Positions 2,952-39,420 of a stretch of 64,000 nucleotides of DNA are shown here, piece after piece (the stretch's first letter is position 1; every line of letters starts with the position of its first letter). The notes beneath the pieces are model-generated. The model searched no databases and was not told the origin of the DNA. It saw only the letters and a list, made by a program, of their open reading frames with translations. The DNA is taken from contig NZ_JACIDZ010000012.1 of NCBI RefSeq assembly GCF_014196625.1, positions 62,001-126,000 on the forward strand, read 5' to 3'. A program made the position numbers and the translations under genes. The stretch is from Martelella radicis. Lineage in GTDB: Bacteria > Pseudomonadota > Alphaproteobacteria > Rhizobiales > Rhizobiaceae.

Positions 2952-3947
2952 TTAGTTGGAAAGTGCCGCGTCGGTGATTTCCAGCGTATAGGCGCCTTCC
3001 GGCGTCTTGGTGATGACCGGGTCCGAACCGCCGCCGAGCAGAACCTCGACGGTGCGCTCGTAGTCGGCCGGATCAAGCGCGCCGTTGGAGCCGGCCGTCA
3101 GCTTGGCCACTTCGCCCATCATCCGCTTCTGGTGCTTTTCGGTCTGGGCGCCGGTATCGTCATATTCGAGCACGATTTCGGCGGCTTCGTCCGGGTTTTC
3201 CTCGGCCCATTTCCAGCCCTTCATCGAAGCGCGAACGAATTTGACCATGTCTTCCTTGAATTCCGGATTGGCCAGGTCGTCTTCGAGAACATAAAGGCCG
3301 TCCTCCAGCGTCGCCACGCCTTCATCCTCGTATTTGAAGGTGTTGAGCGCATCTTCCGGGATACCGGCGTCGACCACCTGCCAATACTCGTTATAGGTCA
3401 TGGTCGAGATACAGGCTGCCTGCTTCTGCAGGAGCGGATCGACGTTGAAGCCCTGTTTCAGCACGGTCACGCCATCTTCGCCGCCATCGGTCGGGATGCC
3501 AAGATGCGCCATCCATGACAGGAAGGGATATTCATTGCCGTAGAACCAGACGCCGAGCGTCTTGCCGGGGAAATCCTCGGGGCTCATGACATTGTTTTCC
3601 TTCAGGCAGGTCAGCATCATGCCGGAGGATTTGAACGGCTGGGCGATGTTGACGAGCGGCACGCCCTTTTCGCGCGTTGCAAGCGCGGACGGCATCCAAT
3701 CGACGATGACGTCTGCGCCGCCGCCGGCGAGCACCTGTGCCGGCGCGATATCCGGGCCGCCGGGCTTGATGGTGACGTCAAGGCCTTCTTCCTCGTAGAA
3801 GCCCTTTTCCAGCGCCACGTAATAGCCCGCGAACTGGGCCTGCGTCACCCATTTGAGCTGCAGGGTGATCTCGTCTGCGGAAAAGGCCTGACCTGCGCCG
3901 AGCGCCAGACCGCCAGCGGTCAATGCCGCGAGAAATGTCGATTTCAT
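2952..3947 (-). CDS. ABC transporter substrate-binding protein, NMT1/ThiY family (probable pyrimidine uptake)
   Basis: 331-residue periplasmic binding protein. The start at 3947 gives a clean signal peptide (MKSTFLAALTAGGLALGAG then a cleavage-like AFSA) and follows a GGGGAAC ribosome-binding site; a longer frame upstream lacks these. The mature N-terminus, LQLKWVTQAQFAGYYVA, is the hallmark of NMT1/THI5-like proteins that bind pyrimidines such as hydroxymethylpyrimidine. It is the last gene of the array with two permeases and, further upstream, the ATPase. Its place beside dihydropyrimidinase and the carbamoyl amidohydrolase argues for uracil, thymine or a reduced pyrimidine as ligand. The substrate is inferred from context. 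Confidence 0.88.
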   Translation of the reverse strand: MKSTFLAALTAGGLALGAGQAFSADEITLQLKWVTQAQFAGYYVALEKGFYEEEGLDVTIKPGGPDIAPAQVLAGGGADVIVDWMPSALATREKGVPLVNIAQPFKSSGMMLTCLKENNVMSPEDFPGKTLGVWFYGNEYPFLSWMAHLGIPTDGGEDGVTVLKQGFNVDPLLQKQAACISTMTYNEYWQVVDAGIPEDALNTFKYEDEGVATLEDGLYVLEDDLANPEFKEDMVKFVRASMKGWKWAEENPDEAAEIVLEYDDTGAQTEKHQKRMMGEVAKLTAGSNGALDPADYERTVEVLLGGGSDPVITKTPEGAYTLEITDAALSN

Positions 3948-3978
3948 GTTTTCGTTCCCCTTGGTTTCGATTGGTTCA

Positions 3979-4848
3979 TCACGACCGCCCGGACCGGACG
4001 GAGGGATGCCAGAACGTGACGACGCGCTGGATGAGCGCCACCACGCCATAAAAGGCGGAGCCGGCAACAGCCGCCACCGCTATTTCGGCCCAGACCATGT
4101 CGATATTGGCCCGGCCCACTTCCGTGGAGATCCGGAAACCCATGCCGACCGTGGGTGTGCCGAAAAACTCTGCCACAATGGCGCCGATCAGCGCCAGCGT
4201 GGAATTGATCTTCAACGCATTGAAAATGAACGGCCATGCCGCCGGAAGCCGGAGCTTGACCATGGTCTGGCCCCAGCTTGCCGCATAGGTGCGCATCAGG
4301 TCGCGCTCCATGCTGGAGGAGGCGGACAGGCCCTGAATGGTGTTGACCAGCATCGGGAAGAAGGTCGCGACCACGACAACGGCGGCCTTTGACGGCCAGT
4401 CGAAGCCGAACCACATCACCATGATCGGCGCGATGCCGACAATCGGCAGCGCCGAGACGAAATTTCCGAAGGGCAGCAGCCCGTTTTTCAGGAAAGGCGA
4501 GCGGTCGATGAGGATGGCAACGATGAAGCCCGAGCCGCAGCCGATCGCATAGCCGATCAGCACCGCCTTCAGAAAGGTCTGCTGGAAATCGGCCCACAGG
4601 ATCGGCAGCGAGTGTGTCAGCCGCACCCAGACATCGCTTGGGGCGGGCAGCAGGATCGGCGGGATGTCGAAGGCAATCACAACGCCTTCCCAGATGATGA
4701 TGATCGCGGCGCCGAAGATGACGGGCACGGCAAACCAGGCGAGGCGATTGAGCACGGGGTTGGAGAATTTCTGCCGCACCAGCCATTCATTGAAGGCCCA
4801 GCCGCCGAGCCAGAAGGCGATTGCGAACCAGACAAAACCGTCATTCAT
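3979..4848 (-). CDS. ABC transporter permease (SsuC/TauC-like), pyrimidine transporter component 2
   Basis: 289-residue inner-membrane permease with about six hydrophobic helices. The conserved cytoplasmic EAA-type loop that docks on the ATPase is visible around MRTYAASWGQTMVKLRLPA, followed by an ALIGAIVAEFFGT segment typical of the BPD_transp_1 family for NMT1-type systems. The start ATG at 4848 overlaps the stop of the preceding permease by 4 nt (ATGA), so translation is coupled. The binding-protein gene follows 31 nt downstream. A longer upstream frame is just the overlap with the neighbouring gene. Confidence 0.9.
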   Translation of the reverse strand: MNDGFVWFAIAFWLGGWAFNEWLVRQKFSNPVLNRLAWFAVPVIFGAAIIIIWEGVVIAFDIPPILLPAPSDVWVRLTHSLPILWADFQQTFLKAVLIGYAIGCGSGFIVAILIDRSPFLKNGLLPFGNFVSALPIVGIAPIMVMWFGFDWPSKAAVVVVATFFPMLVNTIQGLSASSSMERDLMRTYAASWGQTMVKLRLPAAWPFIFNALKINSTLALIGAIVAEFFGTPTVGMGFRISTEVGRANIDMVWAEIAVAAVAGSAFYGVVALIQRVVTFWHPSVRSGRS

Positions 4849-5714
4849 GGCTTGACCCCCATGCGTTTGAGGACCGCCGTTTGCGCAAGGCCGACAATGG
4901 CGACGAGAATGGAGGCAAGGATGGCCGCCATGAACAGCGCCGACCAGATCTGCACGGTCTGCCCATAATAGGAGCCCGACAGGAGCCGCGCGCCAAGTCC
5001 CGCCACCGCTCCCGTCGGCAGTTCGGCAATGATCGCGCCGACCAGCGAGATCGCAATGGCGATCTTCAGCGAGGTGAAGAGATAAGGCATGGCCGATGGC
5101 AGCCGCAGCTTCCACAGGATCTGCCGGTCATTGGCGTTATAGGTGCGCATCAAATCAAGCTGCAGCGCGTCGGGCGAGCGCAGCCCCGAGACCATGCCGA
5201 CGGCGACGGGGAAGAAGGACAGATAGGTCGAGATCAGCGCCTTGGGCAAAAGCCCGGTAATGCCGATGGCGTTCAGCACCACGATCAGCATCGGCGCTAT
5301 CGCGATGATGGGAATGGTCTGGCTAGCGATGATCCACGGCATCATCGAGCGCTCCATCGTGCGGTTATGAACGATGGCGATCGCCAGAATGATGCCGAAA
5401 CCGGAGCCGATGGCAAAGCCGAGCAGGGTGGAGGAAAGCGTGATCCAGGCGTGGTAGACGAGGCTGCGCTTGGAGGTGACCTTCTTCTCGATGGTCGTGC
5501 TCCACAGCTCCGCCGCGACCTGATGCGGCGAGGGCAGGACCGGCCTTTCCAGCGTGTAGGATTGCGAGACGACTTCGCCGAAGGTGATCTCCTGGCCTGC
5601 CCGCCTCGCCTGGTCCTCGACGAATTGCCGGTTCAGGACCACGACGAAGACACACCAGATGGCGAGGATGGCGAAGACGACGGTGGCAACGGGAAGGACG
5701 CGCTCACGCAGCAT
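4845..5714 (-). CDS. ABC transporter permease (SsuC/TauC-like), pyrimidine transporter component 1
   Basis: 289-residue inner-membrane permease, the same length as its downstream partner, suggesting a heterodimeric channel. The start at 5714 (MLRERVLPVATVVFAIL) opens directly into a membrane helix. The EAA-loop region is at MRTYNANDRQILWKLRLPS. A frame continuing upstream would read into the RIME repeat, so the internal start is preferred. The gene is separated from the upstream part of the array by about 395 nt of repeat DNA (RIME plus a second palindromic element), which may reduce or modulate expression of the transporter relative to the enzymes. Confidence 0.9.
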   Translation of the reverse strand: MLRERVLPVATVVFAILAIWCVFVVVLNRQFVEDQARRAGQEITFGEVVSQSYTLERPVLPSPHQVAAELWSTTIEKKVTSKRSLVYHAWITLSSTLLGFAIGSGFGIILAIAIVHNRTMERSMMPWIIASQTIPIIAIAPMLIVVLNAIGITGLLPKALISTYLSFFPVAVGMVSGLRSPDALQLDLMRTYNANDRQILWKLRLPSAMPYLFTSLKIAIAISLVGAIIAELPTGAVAGLGARLLSGSYYGQTVQIWSALFMAAILASILVAIVGLAQTAVLKRMGVKP

Positions 5715-26131: not shown

Positions 26132-27247
26132 TCAGCCGCCCAGCACGGGATAGTCGGTGTAGCCCTTCTCATCACCGCCGAACAGCGTCCTCTGATCCAA
26201 CGCATTGAGCTGCGCATTGATCCGCAGGCGGCGCACAAGATCGGGATTGGCGACGAACGGGCGGCCGAAACAGATCAGGTCGGCACGCTCCTTTTCCAGT
26301 GCATCGATGGCGAGCTGCCGGTCGTAGCCATTATTGACCATCCAGGCCCCGGAGCCATCGGTCCGGTAGTAGGTCTCGCGCATTTCCTCGTAATTGAACG
26401 GTTCTGGCCCCTGCTGGTAGACGCGGTCGCCGCCGGTCGCGCCCTCGATGACATGAACATAAGCGAGATCATAGGCGCTGAGCTGGCTTGCCAGATAGTT
26501 GAAGAGCGCCTGGGGCTTGTCGTCGTGGATATCATTCGACGGCGCGACGGGCGACAGGCGGATGGCGGTGCGGCCGGGGCCGATCTCGCGCGAGATTGCG
26601 CCGACAACATCGAACATGAAGCGCGCGCGGTTTTCCAGTGGGCCGCCGTAGAGGTCGGTGCGTTGATTGGCGCCGGAGCGCAGGAACTGGTCGACGAGAT
26701 ATCCATTGGCGCCGTGAATTTCGACGCCGTCGAACCCGGCTTCCATGGCGCGGGCGGCGGCGCGCCGGAAATCCTCGATGATGCTGGAGATTTCATAGGG
26801 CTTGAGCTGACGCGGCATCGAGGTTTCGATGAAATCGCTGCTGCCGTCGGAATAGACGACGAAGGTCTTGGCTCGCGCCTGGATGGGCGATGGGGCGACT
26901 GGCGGGTCACCGAAAGGCTGCAGCGATTTGTGCGAGATACGCCCGACATGGACGAGCTGGCAGAAGATCTTTCCGCCCGATTCGTGCACTGCCGTCGTCA
27001 CATGCCGCCAGCCTTCGACGGCCTCATCGCTGTAAATGCCCGGCGCATGCGAATAGCCCTGGCCCTGTTCGGTGATTGCCGTTGCCTCGGAAATGATCAG
27101 GCCGGCGGAGGCGCGCTGCCGGTAATATTCGACGTTGAGCTCGTTCGGAACGGCATCGGGGGAACGGTTGCGCATCAGCGGACCCATGATGATGCGGTTT
27201 TCGAGAGTGACGTCGCCGATCGTGATGGGATCAAAAAGATTGGCCAT
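26132..27247 (-). CDS. Old yellow enzyme, N-ethylmaleimide reductase-like
   Basis: 371-residue FMN-dependent ene-reductase. FMN and substrate contacts are visible: GPLMRNRS, the H178/N181/Y183 group in EIHGANGYLVDQFL and the C-terminal GRPFVANPDL phosphate-binding segment. This is the NemA/PETN-reductase class that reduces activated alkenes, maleimides and nitro compounds using NADPH. Same strand as chaA downstream. Its upstream region (27248-27460) borders the terminator of the sRNA pair; no obvious operator found. Confidence 0.92.
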   Translation of the reverse strand: MANLFDPITIGDVTLENRIIMGPLMRNRSPDAVPNELNVEYYRQRASAGLIISEATAITEQGQGYSHAPGIYSDEAVEGWRHVTTAVHESGGKIFCQLVHVGRISHKSLQPFGDPPVAPSPIQARAKTFVVYSDGSSDFIETSMPRQLKPYEISSIIEDFRRAAARAMEAGFDGVEIHGANGYLVDQFLRSGANQRTDLYGGPLENRARFMFDVVGAISREIGPGRTAIRLSPVAPSNDIHDDKPQALFNYLASQLSAYDLAYVHVIEGATGGDRVYQQGPEPFNYEEMRETYYRTDGSGAWMVNNGYDRQLAIDALEKERADLICFGRPFVANPDLVRRLRINAQLNALDQRTLFGGDEKGYTDYPVLGG

Positions 27248-27463
27248 TCAATTCCTTTCCGTCTCGGGCCCTCGAAGCTTTGTCCTGTGTAGCCTACGCC
27301 AGACGTATGCGCAATTTTGCAATGGTCCCGAAAAGCCCTTCGAAAGCCATTGCGCCGCCGTCACCTCGAAAGGTCTTGTCGTTCTAGACCACAAAAAGAC
27401 AAGAAAGCGTATACGTATTGAAGTGCCGAAGGGTGCTGCCGGTTCCCGGCCTTGACGCGAGGC

Positions 27464-27573
27464 AAAAAAAAAGGGCCTCCAAACGGGGCCCTTGTTAGGT
27501 GTGAAGGTAAAACCTCCAGAGGGGAACAGCTGCTGCAGCGAGACTCAACGAGTCGTCGCCGTATGCATCAGCT
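27464..27573 (-). ncRNA. AbcR-type trans-acting sRNA (alpha-r15 family), downstream copy
   Basis: Predicted 110-nt transcript. Promoter: -35 TTGCAA (27604-27609), 17-nt spacer, -10 CATATG (27581-27586), start at about 27573. Terminator: GGGCC...GGGCCC-type stem at 27473-27491 (minus-strand GGGCCCCGTTTGGAGGCCC) then nine U residues (27464-27472). It shares with the neighbouring copy an identical 28-nt core at 27509-27536 containing UUCCCCUC, the anti-ribosome-binding-site type module of AbcR RNAs, and the first bases AGCUGAUGCA. It sits in tandem with the other copy next to lsrB, the known arrangement of AbcR1/AbcR2 in rhizobia. These RNAs repress ABC-transporter mRNAs with Hfq. Confidence 0.82.
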
Positions 27574-27656
27574 AACTCAGCATATGGTTCTTTTTTGTGC
27601 GCGTTGCAACAGTTTTCATCGCGAAATGCGAAAAAAAAGAACAGGGAATCGCGGGC

Positions 27657-27774
27657 AAAAAAAGAGGGCCGCCGAAAAACGGGGCCCTTTGAGTTAGAAG
27701 GTCTCTCAAAACCTCCAGAGGGGAACAGCTGCTGCGGTGCACCAGGGAGAAATTGGGCACCAACTGCATCAGCT
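27657..27774 (-). ncRNA. AbcR-type trans-acting sRNA (alpha-r15 family), upstream copy
   Basis: Predicted 118-nt transcript. Promoter: -35 TTGAAG (27804-27809), 17-nt spacer, -10 CATATC (27781-27786), start at about 27774. Terminator stem at 27665-27689 with a U-run at 27657-27664. It has two C-rich single-stranded candidates: CUCCC in UUUCUCCCUGGUG, absent from the other copy, and the shared UUCCCCUC in the 28-nt core (27708-27735). The two-module layout matches AbcR RNAs with separate target-binding regions. The core is identical to the downstream copy while the 5' part and terminator loop differ, as expected for a retained duplication. Confidence 0.83.
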
Positions 27775-27994
27775 ATGTGCGATATGCTCCCAAATTAGGC
27801 ATTCTTCAATGCGATTTTCTGCATGGCTGCCATGCAGGAAACGAAATTTGCAGCCAAAATTGACTAAAAGAAAGCAGATAGGAAAATTGCACAAAAAACA
27901 GTCTTTTTTGGCGTTGAAATGGTCTGTCCGCCACCGGTTGCCGCGCTGCGCGGATATTGCCACACCAAAATGCGGCTTGCCTTGAACAAACAAA

Positions 27995-28016
27995 GCCCTC
28001 GGCCGGCCTGCCGGGC
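27995..28016 (-). terminator. Possible terminator after lsrB
   Basis: On the minus strand downstream of the lsrB stop, GCCCGGC pairs with GCCGAGGGC (two-base bulge), followed by the T-rich TTTGTTTGTT. Would end the trxB-lsrB transcript before the sRNA promoters. The remaining sequence to 27810 is AT-rich and shows no gene. Confidence 0.45.
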
Positions 28017-28063
28017 CTGGTCGCAGAGCGCGAAAAACGAATCGTTTCAGGCGGTGAAGAGCT

Positions 28064-28975
28064 TCAGAAGCTCCAGTTCCTTGATTTCGCAACGATGAAA
28101 TCGCGGAATACCTTGAGCTTGGCCGAATTCTTCATTTCATCGGGATAGCAGAAATAGGTGTCGAAGCTCGGTACATCCGCGTGAGTAACGAGTTGCAGAA
28201 GGCCCGGGTCGCGCCCGACGATATAATCCGGTAGCATGACGATGCCGATGCCGAGCAGCGCCGCGCGCTTGATCGAGGTGAGCGAATTGATCTGCAGGTG
28301 CGCCGGGCGCGGATTGTCAGGCGAGCGCCCGGCGATCTCCAGCCAGTTCACATCGAGCAGATAGGCCGGCGCCGGCTCGCCGAATGTGATGATGCGGTGA
28401 TTGTCGAGATCCTCGATCGACTGCGGCTCGCCGTGACGGTTGATGTAGGACGGCGAGGCATAGACATGCATGTGCACGGTGAACAGCTTGCGCTGGATCA
28501 GGTCCGGCTGTTGCGGCTGGCGCAGGCGGATCGCGCAATCGGCATGGCGCATGTTCACGTCCAGCTCCTCATTGTCGAGGATGAGCTGGATCTGCATGTC
28601 GGGGTAGAGCTGAAGGAATTCCTGAACCTTGTCGGTGAGCCACCCCTGACCGAGACCCACCGTCGTCGTCACCCTCAGCTTGCCGGAAGGCTTTTCCTTG
28701 GTCTCCGTCAGCCGTGAGCGAACACCCTCGAGCTTCAGGAGAACGTCATGGGCGGTGCGATAAAGCAGCTCGCCCTGCTCGGTGAGAATCAGGCCGCGCG
28801 CATGGCGGTGGAACAGCTTGACGCCGACATCCTGTTCGAGGGCCGAGACCTGCCGGCTGATCGCCGATTGGGACAGATGCAGCTTGTCTGCCGCATGGGT
28901 GAACGAGCCCGCCTCCGCTGCCGCATGGAAGATGCGCAGCTTGTCCCAATCCAGAGGCATGCTCGTGCTTTTCAT
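28064..28975 (-). CDS. lsrB: LysR-family regulator LsrB/VtlR
   Basis: 303 residues with an N-terminal LysR helix-turn-helix (AGSFTHAADKLHLSQSAISR) and a regulatory domain. Identity rests on sequence type and neighbourhood: it lies 5 nt downstream of trxB and immediately upstream of the tandem AbcR-like sRNAs, as lsrB does in Sinorhizobium and vtlR in Brucella. Cysteines at 147 (MRHADCAIRL) and 275 (TYFCYPDE) fit the redox-sensitive cysteines described for LsrB, though numbering depends on the start (a second Met at residue 6). Known homologues activate abcR transcription and are needed for host interaction and oxidative-stress tolerance. Confidence 0.87.
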   Translation of the reverse strand: MKSTSMPLDWDKLRIFHAAAEAGSFTHAADKLHLSQSAISRQVSALEQDVGVKLFHRHARGLILTEQGELLYRTAHDVLLKLEGVRSRLTETKEKPSGKLRVTTTVGLGQGWLTDKVQEFLQLYPDMQIQLILDNEELDVNMRHADCAIRLRQPQQPDLIQRKLFTVHMHVYASPSYINRHGEPQSIEDLDNHRIITFGEPAPAYLLDVNWLEIAGRSPDNPRPAHLQINSLTSIKRAALLGIGIVMLPDYIVGRDPGLLQLVTHADVPSFDTYFCYPDEMKNSAKLKVFRDFIVAKSRNWSF

Positions 28976-28980
28976 AAATT

Positions 28981-29958
28981 CTACTCCGCGGCCGCCAGTG
29001 TACCGGTTTTCTGTTCGGTCAGGAAGCGCTCGGCCTCAAGTGCGGCCATACAACCCATGCCAGCCGCCGTTACCGCCTGACGATAATTGTCGTCGGTAAC
29101 GTCGCCGGCGCCGTAGACGCCTTCGATGCTGGTCTTCGTCGTGCCCGGTTCGGTCCACAGATAGCCATTCTGCTTCAACTCGAGCTGGTTTCTGATCAGG
29201 TCGACCTGCGGTGCGTGGCCGATGGCGATGAACACGCCGTCGGCATCGACCGTGGTCTTTTCGCCGCTCTTAACATCTTTCAGCCTGACGCCGGTGACGG
29301 AGGGCGGCAGCGGCGGAACTGCGGCAGTGCCGACGATTTCCTCGACCGCATGGTTCCAGATCACCTTGACGTTTTCGAGCGCAAACAGGCGTTGCTGCAG
29401 AATCTTTTCCGCGCGGAACTCGTCGCGCCGGTGCACGACCGTCACCGTCTTTGCGATATTGGCAAGATAGAGCGCTTCCTCGACGGCGGAATTGCCGCCG
29501 CCGACAACCACCACATCCTTGCCGCGGTAGAAGAAGCCGTCGCAGGTGGCGCAGGCCGAGACGCCGCCGCCGTTGAAGGTCTCCTCGCTTTCGAGGCCCA
29601 GCCACTTGGCCTTGGCGCCGGTGGCGAGAATCACGGTCTCTGCGGTGAAGACCTCACCGCTGTCGGTCGTGGCGGTGAAGGGACGCTTGGAAAGATCGAG
29701 CCTGGTGACGACATCGTTGACGATTTCGGTGCCGACATTTTCCGCCTGCGCGAGCATCTGCTCCATCAGCCAAGGTCCCTGGATGGGGTCGGCGAATCCC
29801 GGATAGTTCTCGACATCGGTGGTGATCGTCAGCTGTCCGCCCTGTTCCAGTCCGGCAATCAGGATCGGCTTCATCATCGCGCGCGCGGCGTAGATCGCAG
29901 CGGTATAGCCGGCCGGGCCGGAGCCGATGATCAGAACCTTTGTGTGATGGTCGGGCAT
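28981..29958 (-). CDS. trxB: Thioredoxin reductase
   Basis: 325 residues from ATG 29958 (MPDHHTKVLIIGSGPAG) after AAGGA; an upstream ATG adding 12 codons is less likely. FAD-binding GSGPAGYTAA, redox-active CATC (136-139 in SACATCDGF), NADPH-binding GGGNSAVEEALYL and the C-terminal GVYGAGDVTDDNYRQA motif are all present. Reduces thioredoxin with NADPH in the cytosol. Followed after 22 nt (start-to-stop 5 nt) by lsrB, so redox enzyme and LysR regulator form one operon. Confidence 0.96.
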   Translation of the reverse strand: MPDHHTKVLIIGSGPAGYTAAIYAARAMMKPILIAGLEQGGQLTITTDVENYPGFADPIQGPWLMEQMLAQAENVGTEIVNDVVTRLDLSKRPFTATTDSGEVFTAETVILATGAKAKWLGLESEETFNGGGVSACATCDGFFYRGKDVVVVGGGNSAVEEALYLANIAKTVTVVHRRDEFRAEKILQQRLFALENVKVIWNHAVEEIVGTAAVPPLPPSVTGVRLKDVKSGEKTTVDADGVFIAIGHAPQVDLIRNQLELKQNGYLWTEPGTTKTSIEGVYGAGDVTDDNYRQAVTAAGMGCMAALEAERFLTEQKTGTLAAAE

Positions 29959-30168
29959 TTCAAATCCTTTCAGCGCGGCCTTTGACGCGGGCACGCCCGC
30001 TCAATTCAGCGTCTCGGCTCATTTATGGCTGGACGGGCATCAGTTTCAAGGCCATGGAGGTGCTACCAACAGACCATTTCGGTCAGTTGAAAGAATCCTG
30101 CGGAGTGTTGTAATATTATTGCTCGCTCCATAGCCAAACGCGTCCCCGATCCGCCTCAGGAGAAATCA

Positions 30169-38990: not shown

Positions 38991-39021
38991 CCCCGGAGCG
39001 CGCAGCGGCTAGAGAAGTCCC

Positions 39022-39067
39022 GCGCGGGACGGCCCGCGCCAATCGATACCCATCCGGGACGGCCCGG
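39022..39067 (+). promoter_or_regulatory. Guanidine-II (mini-ykkC) riboswitch
   Basis: Two hairpins with identical ACGG loops: GCGCGGG-ACGG-CCCGCGC (39022-39039, 7 bp) and CCGGG-ACGG-CCCGG (39054-39067, 5 bp), separated by 14 nt. Twin short stems with ACGR loops are the defining features of the guanidine-II class. The ribosome-binding site AAAGGAGG (39081-39088) follows the second hairpin and precedes the SMR exporter start at 39097. Guanidinium binding is expected to favour loop-loop pairing and free the ribosome-binding site, switching on the exporter. Confidence 0.9.
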
Positions 39068-39096: not shown

Positions 39097-39420
39097 ATGG
39101 CCTGGTTCATTCTCGCAATTGCCGGTGTTCTCGAGATCGTCTGGGCCTTTTCGATGAAAAAGTCCGCGGGCTTCACCCTTCTCACCCCCACGCTCGTCAC
39201 CATCATCGCCGCTGCCGCCAGCTTCGTGCTGTTGTCGATCTCCATGCGCACGCTGCCGCTCGGCACGGCCTACACGATCTGGACCGGCATCGGCGCCATC
39301 GGCGCCTTCGCCGTCGGCGTGGCCGTTCTCGGCGAGGCGGCAACGCCCGGAAGGCTGATTGCGGCGGCGCTGATTATTTCGGGGATCGTGCTGATGAAGC
39401 TTTCGGGCGGTCAGGGGTGA
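39097..39420 (+). CDS. gdx: SMR-family guanidinium exporter (Gdx/SugE)
   Basis: 107 residues with four membrane helices, the size of a small multidrug-resistance subunit. E13, the essential proton/substrate carboxylate, lies in GVLEIVWAFSMKKS, with W16 as in the Gdx (SugE) subtype rather than the EmrE drug exporters. GTAYTIWTGIGAIGA is the helix-3 signature. The single-gene format fits a dual-topology homodimer. The guanidine-II riboswitch upstream gives the substrate: guanidinium exchanged for protons. Ends 9 nt before the convergent AlkB gene. Confidence 0.93.
   Translation: MAWFILAIAGVLEIVWAFSMKKSAGFTLLTPTLVTIIAAAASFVLLSISMRTLPLGTAYTIWTGIGAIGAFAVGVAVLGEAATPGRLIAAALIISGIVLMKLSGGQG

Follow-up and report, generated by a model that had tools for sequence, protein, structure and literature searches.

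Two tandem small RNAs of the AbcR (αr15) family lie beside lsrB on the minus strand of a 64,000-nt stretch of the Martelella radicis genome (positions 62,001 to 126,000 of contig NZ_JACIDZ010000012.1; referred to here as the window), an assignment that the covariance model, the RNA architecture, the seed motifs, and the gene order all support. The arrangement very probably represents an AbcR1/AbcR2 locus in which an LsrB-activated AbcR1 with two seed motifs and a separately controlled AbcR2 with the aSD2 motif alone would repress transporter mRNAs. As a member of a known family the locus is ordinary, and the refinement specific to its lineage is modest. What is new here is that, as judged from predicted folds, the former aSD1 loop of the second Martelella copy appears to be a closed stem, its sequence drifting and its pairing kept. 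Coordinates are collected in Table 1, in which copy 1 is the RNA nearer lsrB.

Table 1. Features of the AbcR locus of M. radicis, numbered from the first nucleotide of the window
Feature	Position	Strand	Basis
Copy 1, AbcR1-type sRNA (ar15)	27660..27774	-	RF02345, 92.6 bits, model 1-112; fold z -3.57
Copy 2, AbcR2-type sRNA (ar15)	27467..27573	-	RF02345, 85.9 bits, model 1-112; fold z -4.16
aSD1/M1 core CUCCC, 5' hairpin loop, copy 1 only	27745..27749	-	sequence; predicted unpaired
aSD2/M2 UUCCCCUC, copy 1, between stem-loops 1 and 2	27718..27725	-	sequence; predicted unpaired
aSD2/M2 UUCCCCUC, copy 2, between stem-loops 1 and 2	27519..27526	-	sequence; predicted unpaired
Closed hairpin in place of aSD1 loop, copy 2	27537..27560	-	10 predicted pairs, 3-nt loop
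Intrinsic terminator, copy 1	27658..27688	-	G+C-rich hairpin and T tract; called by generic scan
Intrinsic terminator, copy 2	27464..27493	-	G+C-rich hairpin and T tract; missed by generic scan
Copy 1 core promoter TTGAAG-N17-CATATC	27781..27809	-	sequence; TTG and CATAT each conserved in ≥13 of 14 Martelella-clade loci
Predicted LsrB/VtlR box, palindrome GCATGGCTGCCATGC, -47 to -61 of copy 1	27821..27835		fits published GCAT-N3-TG-N3-T
Copy 2 core promoter TTGCAA-N17-CATATG, without LsrB box	27581..27609	-	sequence; block conserved in 14 Martelella-clade loci
lsrB/vtlR, LysR-type regulator	28064..28975	-	LysR-type models; all 25 shown score below curated cut-offs
trxB, thioredoxin reductase	28981..29994	-	TIGR01292, 405.9 bits (cut-off, 343.45)
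Downstream neighbor, Old Yellow Enzyme (NemA-like)	26132..27247	-	NF007899, E value 4.8e-109, under curated cut-off

An earlier note had recognized the pair as AbcR-type RNAs from the letters alone and named a covariance search among the checks. In that search, the Rfam ar15 model (RF02345; gathering cut-off, 40 bits) matched both copies over their full length and above the cut-off (E values, 6.5e-18 for copy 1 and 3.2e-16 for copy 2), and no third match was found in the whole genome. The model starts, 27774 and 27573, agree with the 5' ends that the note had predicted near 27774 and 27574. Two matches apiece were identified in all 12 same-genus genomes searched. Higher numbers were seen in other genomes: Metarhizobium album (locus L084, positions 4115 to 4647) carries three ar15 copies in tandem 3' of lsrB, and same-family genome G026 has six matches over three contigs, two of them under the cut-off and three clustered on one contig.

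The minus-strand order is trxB, lsrB/vtlR, copy 1, copy 2, and the Old Yellow Enzyme gene, as expected from the reported position of the pair next to lsrB-trxB. The lsrB product shares 90% identity with the Agrobacterium genomosp. 13 protein in the equivalent position, and its best segment is identical (100%) to a Martelella lutilitoris protein. A quick lsrB DNA tree placed the window with M. lutilitoris (SH-aLRT, 97), and both fell within a Martelella clade of nine rows (SH-aLRT, 100). Records L033 (titled Marinicella) and L047 (titled Arenimonas) grouped with Martelella and Ciceribacter, respectively; their titles look wrong or their bins mixed. Of 80 related loci, 79 had a TrxB match and the remaining one (L061) is truncated by a contig end; an Old Yellow Enzyme-like frame lies downstream at all 80, at varying distances. 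In the window, this gap is ∼220 nt (27247 to 27467), compared with ∼500 nt at several other loci, which leaves scant room for the arsR gene that S. meliloti and A. tumefaciens are reported to have at this place.

Both RNAs are predicted to form three stem-loops, the last of which is a Rho-independent terminator, and both folds were more stable than those of dinucleotide shuffles (z scores in Table 1). The 28-nt identical core that had drawn attention to the pair is present at 27708 to 27735 in copy 1 and 27509 to 27536 in copy 2 on the minus strand, and aSD2 sits inside it in each. Terminators with U tracts had been proposed for both transcripts, and each indeed ends in a hairpin followed by a T tract. 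A generic scan of positions 27000 to 28200 called two terminator sites (shuffle mean, 2.2), only that of copy 1 belonging to the sRNA pair; it called neither sRNA promoter, and its sole promoter hit was on the opposite strand. Such a scan is no support by itself.

The names and tested roles of the aSD1/M1 and aSD2/M2 motifs come from PMC8844928 and PMC5461406. The CUCCC module was found in the copy nearer lsrB and is absent from copy 2, in agreement with the earlier reading. For comparison, 14 Martelella-clade loci were assembled (the window, 12 same-genus genomes, and L033). CTCCC was present in copy 1 of 13 of these, with CTCCT in L016, and in copy 2 of none (0/14). Among 48 other two-copy loci, copy-2 aSD1 was kept in 44 and missing in L081, L094, L098, and L111; L111 was counted as a loss because its CTCCC falls in the promoter, and a count by pattern that includes it gives 45. 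On the lsrB tree the trait requires three changes, one of them forced by starred branches. A. tumefaciens AbcR2 is also described as being without the C-rich module M1 (PMC5461406 and PMC7486931). That possession of CUCCC by one copy only gives the two RNAs different targets, as the note suggests, is plausible and repeats the explanation given for A. tumefaciens AbcR2 in those two papers.

Upstream of copy 1, the palindrome corresponds to the LsrB/VtlR box GCAT-N3-TG-N3-T (PMC8844928 and PMC7486931) and to its described position near -61 to -49 (PMC8844928). With the three-copy locus L084 left out of the counts, a strict box was present in the copy-1 promoter of 14/14 Martelella-clade, 40/48 other two-copy, and 23/23 single-copy loci; the remaining eight two-copy loci had a box with one mismatch. 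The palindromic form GCATNNCWGNNATGC was found at two places in the genome, about the number expected at random from simple base counting, and the backwards pattern at none. The second place, considered as a further LsrB target, lies inside a 197-aa coding frame and was treated as a chance occurrence. Reports on S. meliloti AbcR1 in strains without lsrB conflict, with no change in PMC7486931 and loss of AbcR1 in PMC8844928.

The two promoters had been described as matching. This holds for the 17-nt spacer, which both share, and fails for regulation: in contrast to copy 1, no copy-2 promoter of the Martelella clade carries an LsrB box (0/14), the best site having two to four mismatches. That LsrB would control both copies here, as matching promoters imply, is thus very improbable despite the shared spacing and despite a copy-2 box, by pattern, in 34 of the 48 two-copy loci of other Rhizobiaceae (a count that includes a probably fortuitous match at -71 in L109). 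In the box-bearing loci outside Martelella (part of L041 to L110), these sequences suggest joint LsrB control of both copies. The Martelella copy-2 promoters instead share a conserved block, TGAAAACT.TTGCA..GCGCACAAAAAAGAACCATAT, preceded by a T tract. At 27627 to 27638 (minus strand), a T tract followed by CGCA lies upstream of the promoter and is conserved across the Martelella set.

A different driver, the heat-shock sigma factor RpoH1, is reported for S. meliloti abcR2 (PMC8844928), and the spacing and -10 sequence (CCATAT) of the Martelella copy-2 promoter are compatible with it. The full RpoH1-type promoter (CTTGAA-N16-CCTATAT) is not matched by Martelella copy 2, with only the -10 compatible, and TTGAA occurs in none of the 14 Martelella-clade copy-2 promoters versus 8 of 13 alignable (of 14) box-less copy-2 promoters elsewhere; TTGAA is a weak mark, since 23 of 71 copy-1 promoters from other genera contain it as well. 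The core identity of the Martelella copy-2 promoter is 0.62 to other-genus copy-1, 0.61 to boxed copy-2, 0.47 to box-less copy-2, and 0.50 to its own copy-1 promoters, placing it nearer copy-1 than box-less copy-2 promoters of other genera, which also argues against RpoH1. In the genome itself, CTTGAAA was identified upstream of one hsp20 gene and CTTGACA upstream of groES; CTTGA was absent from the 500 nt inspected for the other hsp20 frame. Control by RpoH1 is therefore considered unlikely, though less so than joint LsrB control, and the promoter is tentatively read as σ70-like and LsrB independent.

In place of the aSD1 loop, copy 2 is predicted to form a hairpin, and only 0.5% of 2,000 shuffles of the M. 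radicis hairpin sequence folded equally well. The hairpin was predicted in all 12 distinct Martelella-clade sequences, with 8 to 10 pairs and a loop of 3 to 6 nt, and performed better than same-letter shuffles (P < 0.05) in nine; L016 (P = 0.080), L019 (P = 0.160), and L033 (P = 0.056) fell short. The stem shows covariation: its four basal levels are paired in 12/12 sequences, with two-sided exchanges at levels 2 (GC/AT), 3 (CG/TA), and 4 (GC/AT), and level 5 is paired in 11/12 with four standard pair types. Because levels were counted from the stem start of each predicted fold, this tally favors pairing, and sequences from close relatives are not independent of one another. No sequence common to the loops was apparent by eye, an observation that speaks against a new seed.

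The same region could be taken as the mark of a decaying duplicate whose aSD1 loop drifted after duplication and which has little function left. The 5' hairpin of copy 2 is far more divergent than that of copy 1 (mean identity, 0.64 versus 0.93), and in A. tumefaciens only eight genes were reported to change without abcR2 (PMC7486931). Simple decay nevertheless appears improbable, given a stem maintained via changes on both sides, a strongly conserved promoter block, intact aSD2 and terminator sequences in the window copy, and the paired ar15 matches in every same-genus genome searched. The copies differ in control region and in seed content, which is the published Agrobacterium pattern, with the addition of evidence that the copy-2 stem is retained. 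A more specific proposal, put forward tentatively and held at slightly less than even weight, is that Martelella AbcR2 is a rebuilt single-seed RNA, in which a pairing-only stem replacing the aSD1 loop would shield the 5' end and recognize no targets, expressed from an abcR1-like core promoter minus the LsrB box; abcR2 promoters of the Rhizobiaceae would then have at least three input types (LsrB-box, RpoH-like, and Martelella).

Loss of copy-2 aSD1 among the 48 other two-copy loci was seen in 4 of 14 box-less and 0 of 34 boxed loci (Fisher P = 0.005, with kinship ignored). An independent-pairs test of box loss against aSD1 loss had two starred pairs only and no power. Since every aSD1 loss in the sample belongs to a lineage with a box-less copy 2, specialization of input and output may coincide.

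Seed pairing was compared between 84 solute-binding-protein starts and 60 LysR or SDR starts (30 of 49 LysR rows and 30 of 60 SDR rows, those with loci). Start codons in both sets were picked by Shine-Dalgarno strength, a possible source of bias in each. The ABC transporter at 2952 to 5714, which the note had named for target prediction, was inspected as open reading frames. L138 and L139, second pieces of the L127 and L132 frames, were excluded from PF00496 (2 of 26 rows); these pieces sit upstream in the same frame, and the L127 and L132 starts are therefore probably internal. From PF00497, 4 of 11 rows were excluded (L176, which is a channel-like frame in the window, and L175, L178, and L180, which all belong to one 997-aa frame); from PF13407, the 24 of 47 rows after L203, many of which are presumably LacI-type regulators; and from PF13416, the 23 of 53 rows without loci. 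The aSD2 duplex energy was lower for solute-binding-protein starts (-15.58 versus -14.36 kcal/mol; P = 0.028), with none of 200 shuffled seeds equally low. For aSD1, 14 of 200 shuffled seeds were equally low, giving no clear preference, and for the copy-2 hairpin loop, 147 of 200, giving no preference for these starts. Without two doubtful starts (82 versus 60), the aSD2 P value was 0.026, and 2, 13, and 143 of 200 shuffles were equally low for aSD2, aSD1, and the copy-2 loop, respectively.

Perfect aSD2 matches of at least 7 nt were found at 17/84 versus 2/60 starts (P = 0.002), several within AAGGGGAAC-type ribosome-binding sites, and matches of at least 8 nt did not separate the sets (7/84 versus 2/60; P = 0.19). 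Genes whose leaders contain a GGGGAAC-type site include those of L165, L118, L201, and L171. The reversed aSD2 core gave 10/84 versus 2/60 (P = 0.059), and perfect aSD1 matches numbered 7/84 versus 3/60. Among permuted words, GGGGAAC ranked 4 of 105, AGGGGAA 4 of 35, GGGGAA 3 of 15, and GAGGGG, with zero occurrences, 5 of 6. Solute-binding-protein genes have stronger Shine-Dalgarno sites than the control starts, and Shine-Dalgarno words were enriched too, among them GGAGGA (34/84 versus 6/60). Once adjusted for Shine-Dalgarno strength, the aSD2 energy effect was gone (-0.59 ± 0.68 kcal/mol). The match between aSD2 and solute-binding-protein starts is suggestive; it agrees with the known mechanism and is inseparable from Shine-Dalgarno strength.

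Among the closest published parallels is A. tumefaciens, in which the tandem also follows vtlR, AbcR1 carries M1 and M2, AbcR2 carries M2 only, and VtlR activates abcR1 only (PMC7486931 and PMC5461406); it has arsR downstream of copy 2, where the window leaves ∼220 nt before the next gene, and the copy-2 hairpin of the single Agrobacterium genomosp. 13 locus examined (L111) has a sequence unrelated to that of Martelella. S. meliloti shares the tandem, an abcR1 promoter with the LsrB box (-61 to -49), and an AbcR1 with two aSD motifs (PMC8844928), but its AbcR2 keeps aSD1 with one flanking base different (PMC5461406), and its abcR2 promoter fits RpoH1 (PMC8844928), neither of which is seen in Martelella. 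In Brucella abortus, M1 and M2 motifs are likewise present and VtlR controls one copy (PMC5461406 and PMC7486931), but both copies keep M1; the Brucella copies, cited earlier as a tandem precedent, are reported to be on different chromosomes (PMC4211561). Among the papers searched, no title or abstract dealt with Martelella sRNAs or a copy-2 box; absence from print is not claimed.

Elsewhere in the window, a guanidine-II riboswitch was identified at 39021 to 39067 on the plus strand (38.6 bits), and ∼30 nt beyond it begins a 107-aa frame (39097 to 39420) that we take to encode a small multidrug-resistance-type transporter, SugE/Gdx-like.

By analogy with the studied relatives, both RNAs would be transcribed, with LsrB/VtlR from the adjacent gene binding the palindrome and activating AbcR1. 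The aSD1 and aSD2 motifs of AbcR1, one in the 5' hairpin loop and the other between the first two hairpins, could then pair with ribosome-binding sites of transporter mRNAs and, assisted by Hfq, for which the genome encodes a gene, block translation. AbcR2 would be expressed from its own promoter and, with a closed stem for aSD1, would rely solely on aSD2 and so reach a smaller range of targets.

These results add the genus Martelella to a regulatory family that is already well studied and provide what would be a natural single-seed AbcR2, which helps to ask whether it is expression or target range that separates the tasks of sibling sRNAs. Because many copy-2 promoters bear an LsrB-type box, the published rules for abcR2 control (RpoH1 in S. 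meliloti and VtlR independence in A. tumefaciens) may not generalize and may fail across the Rhizobiaceae.
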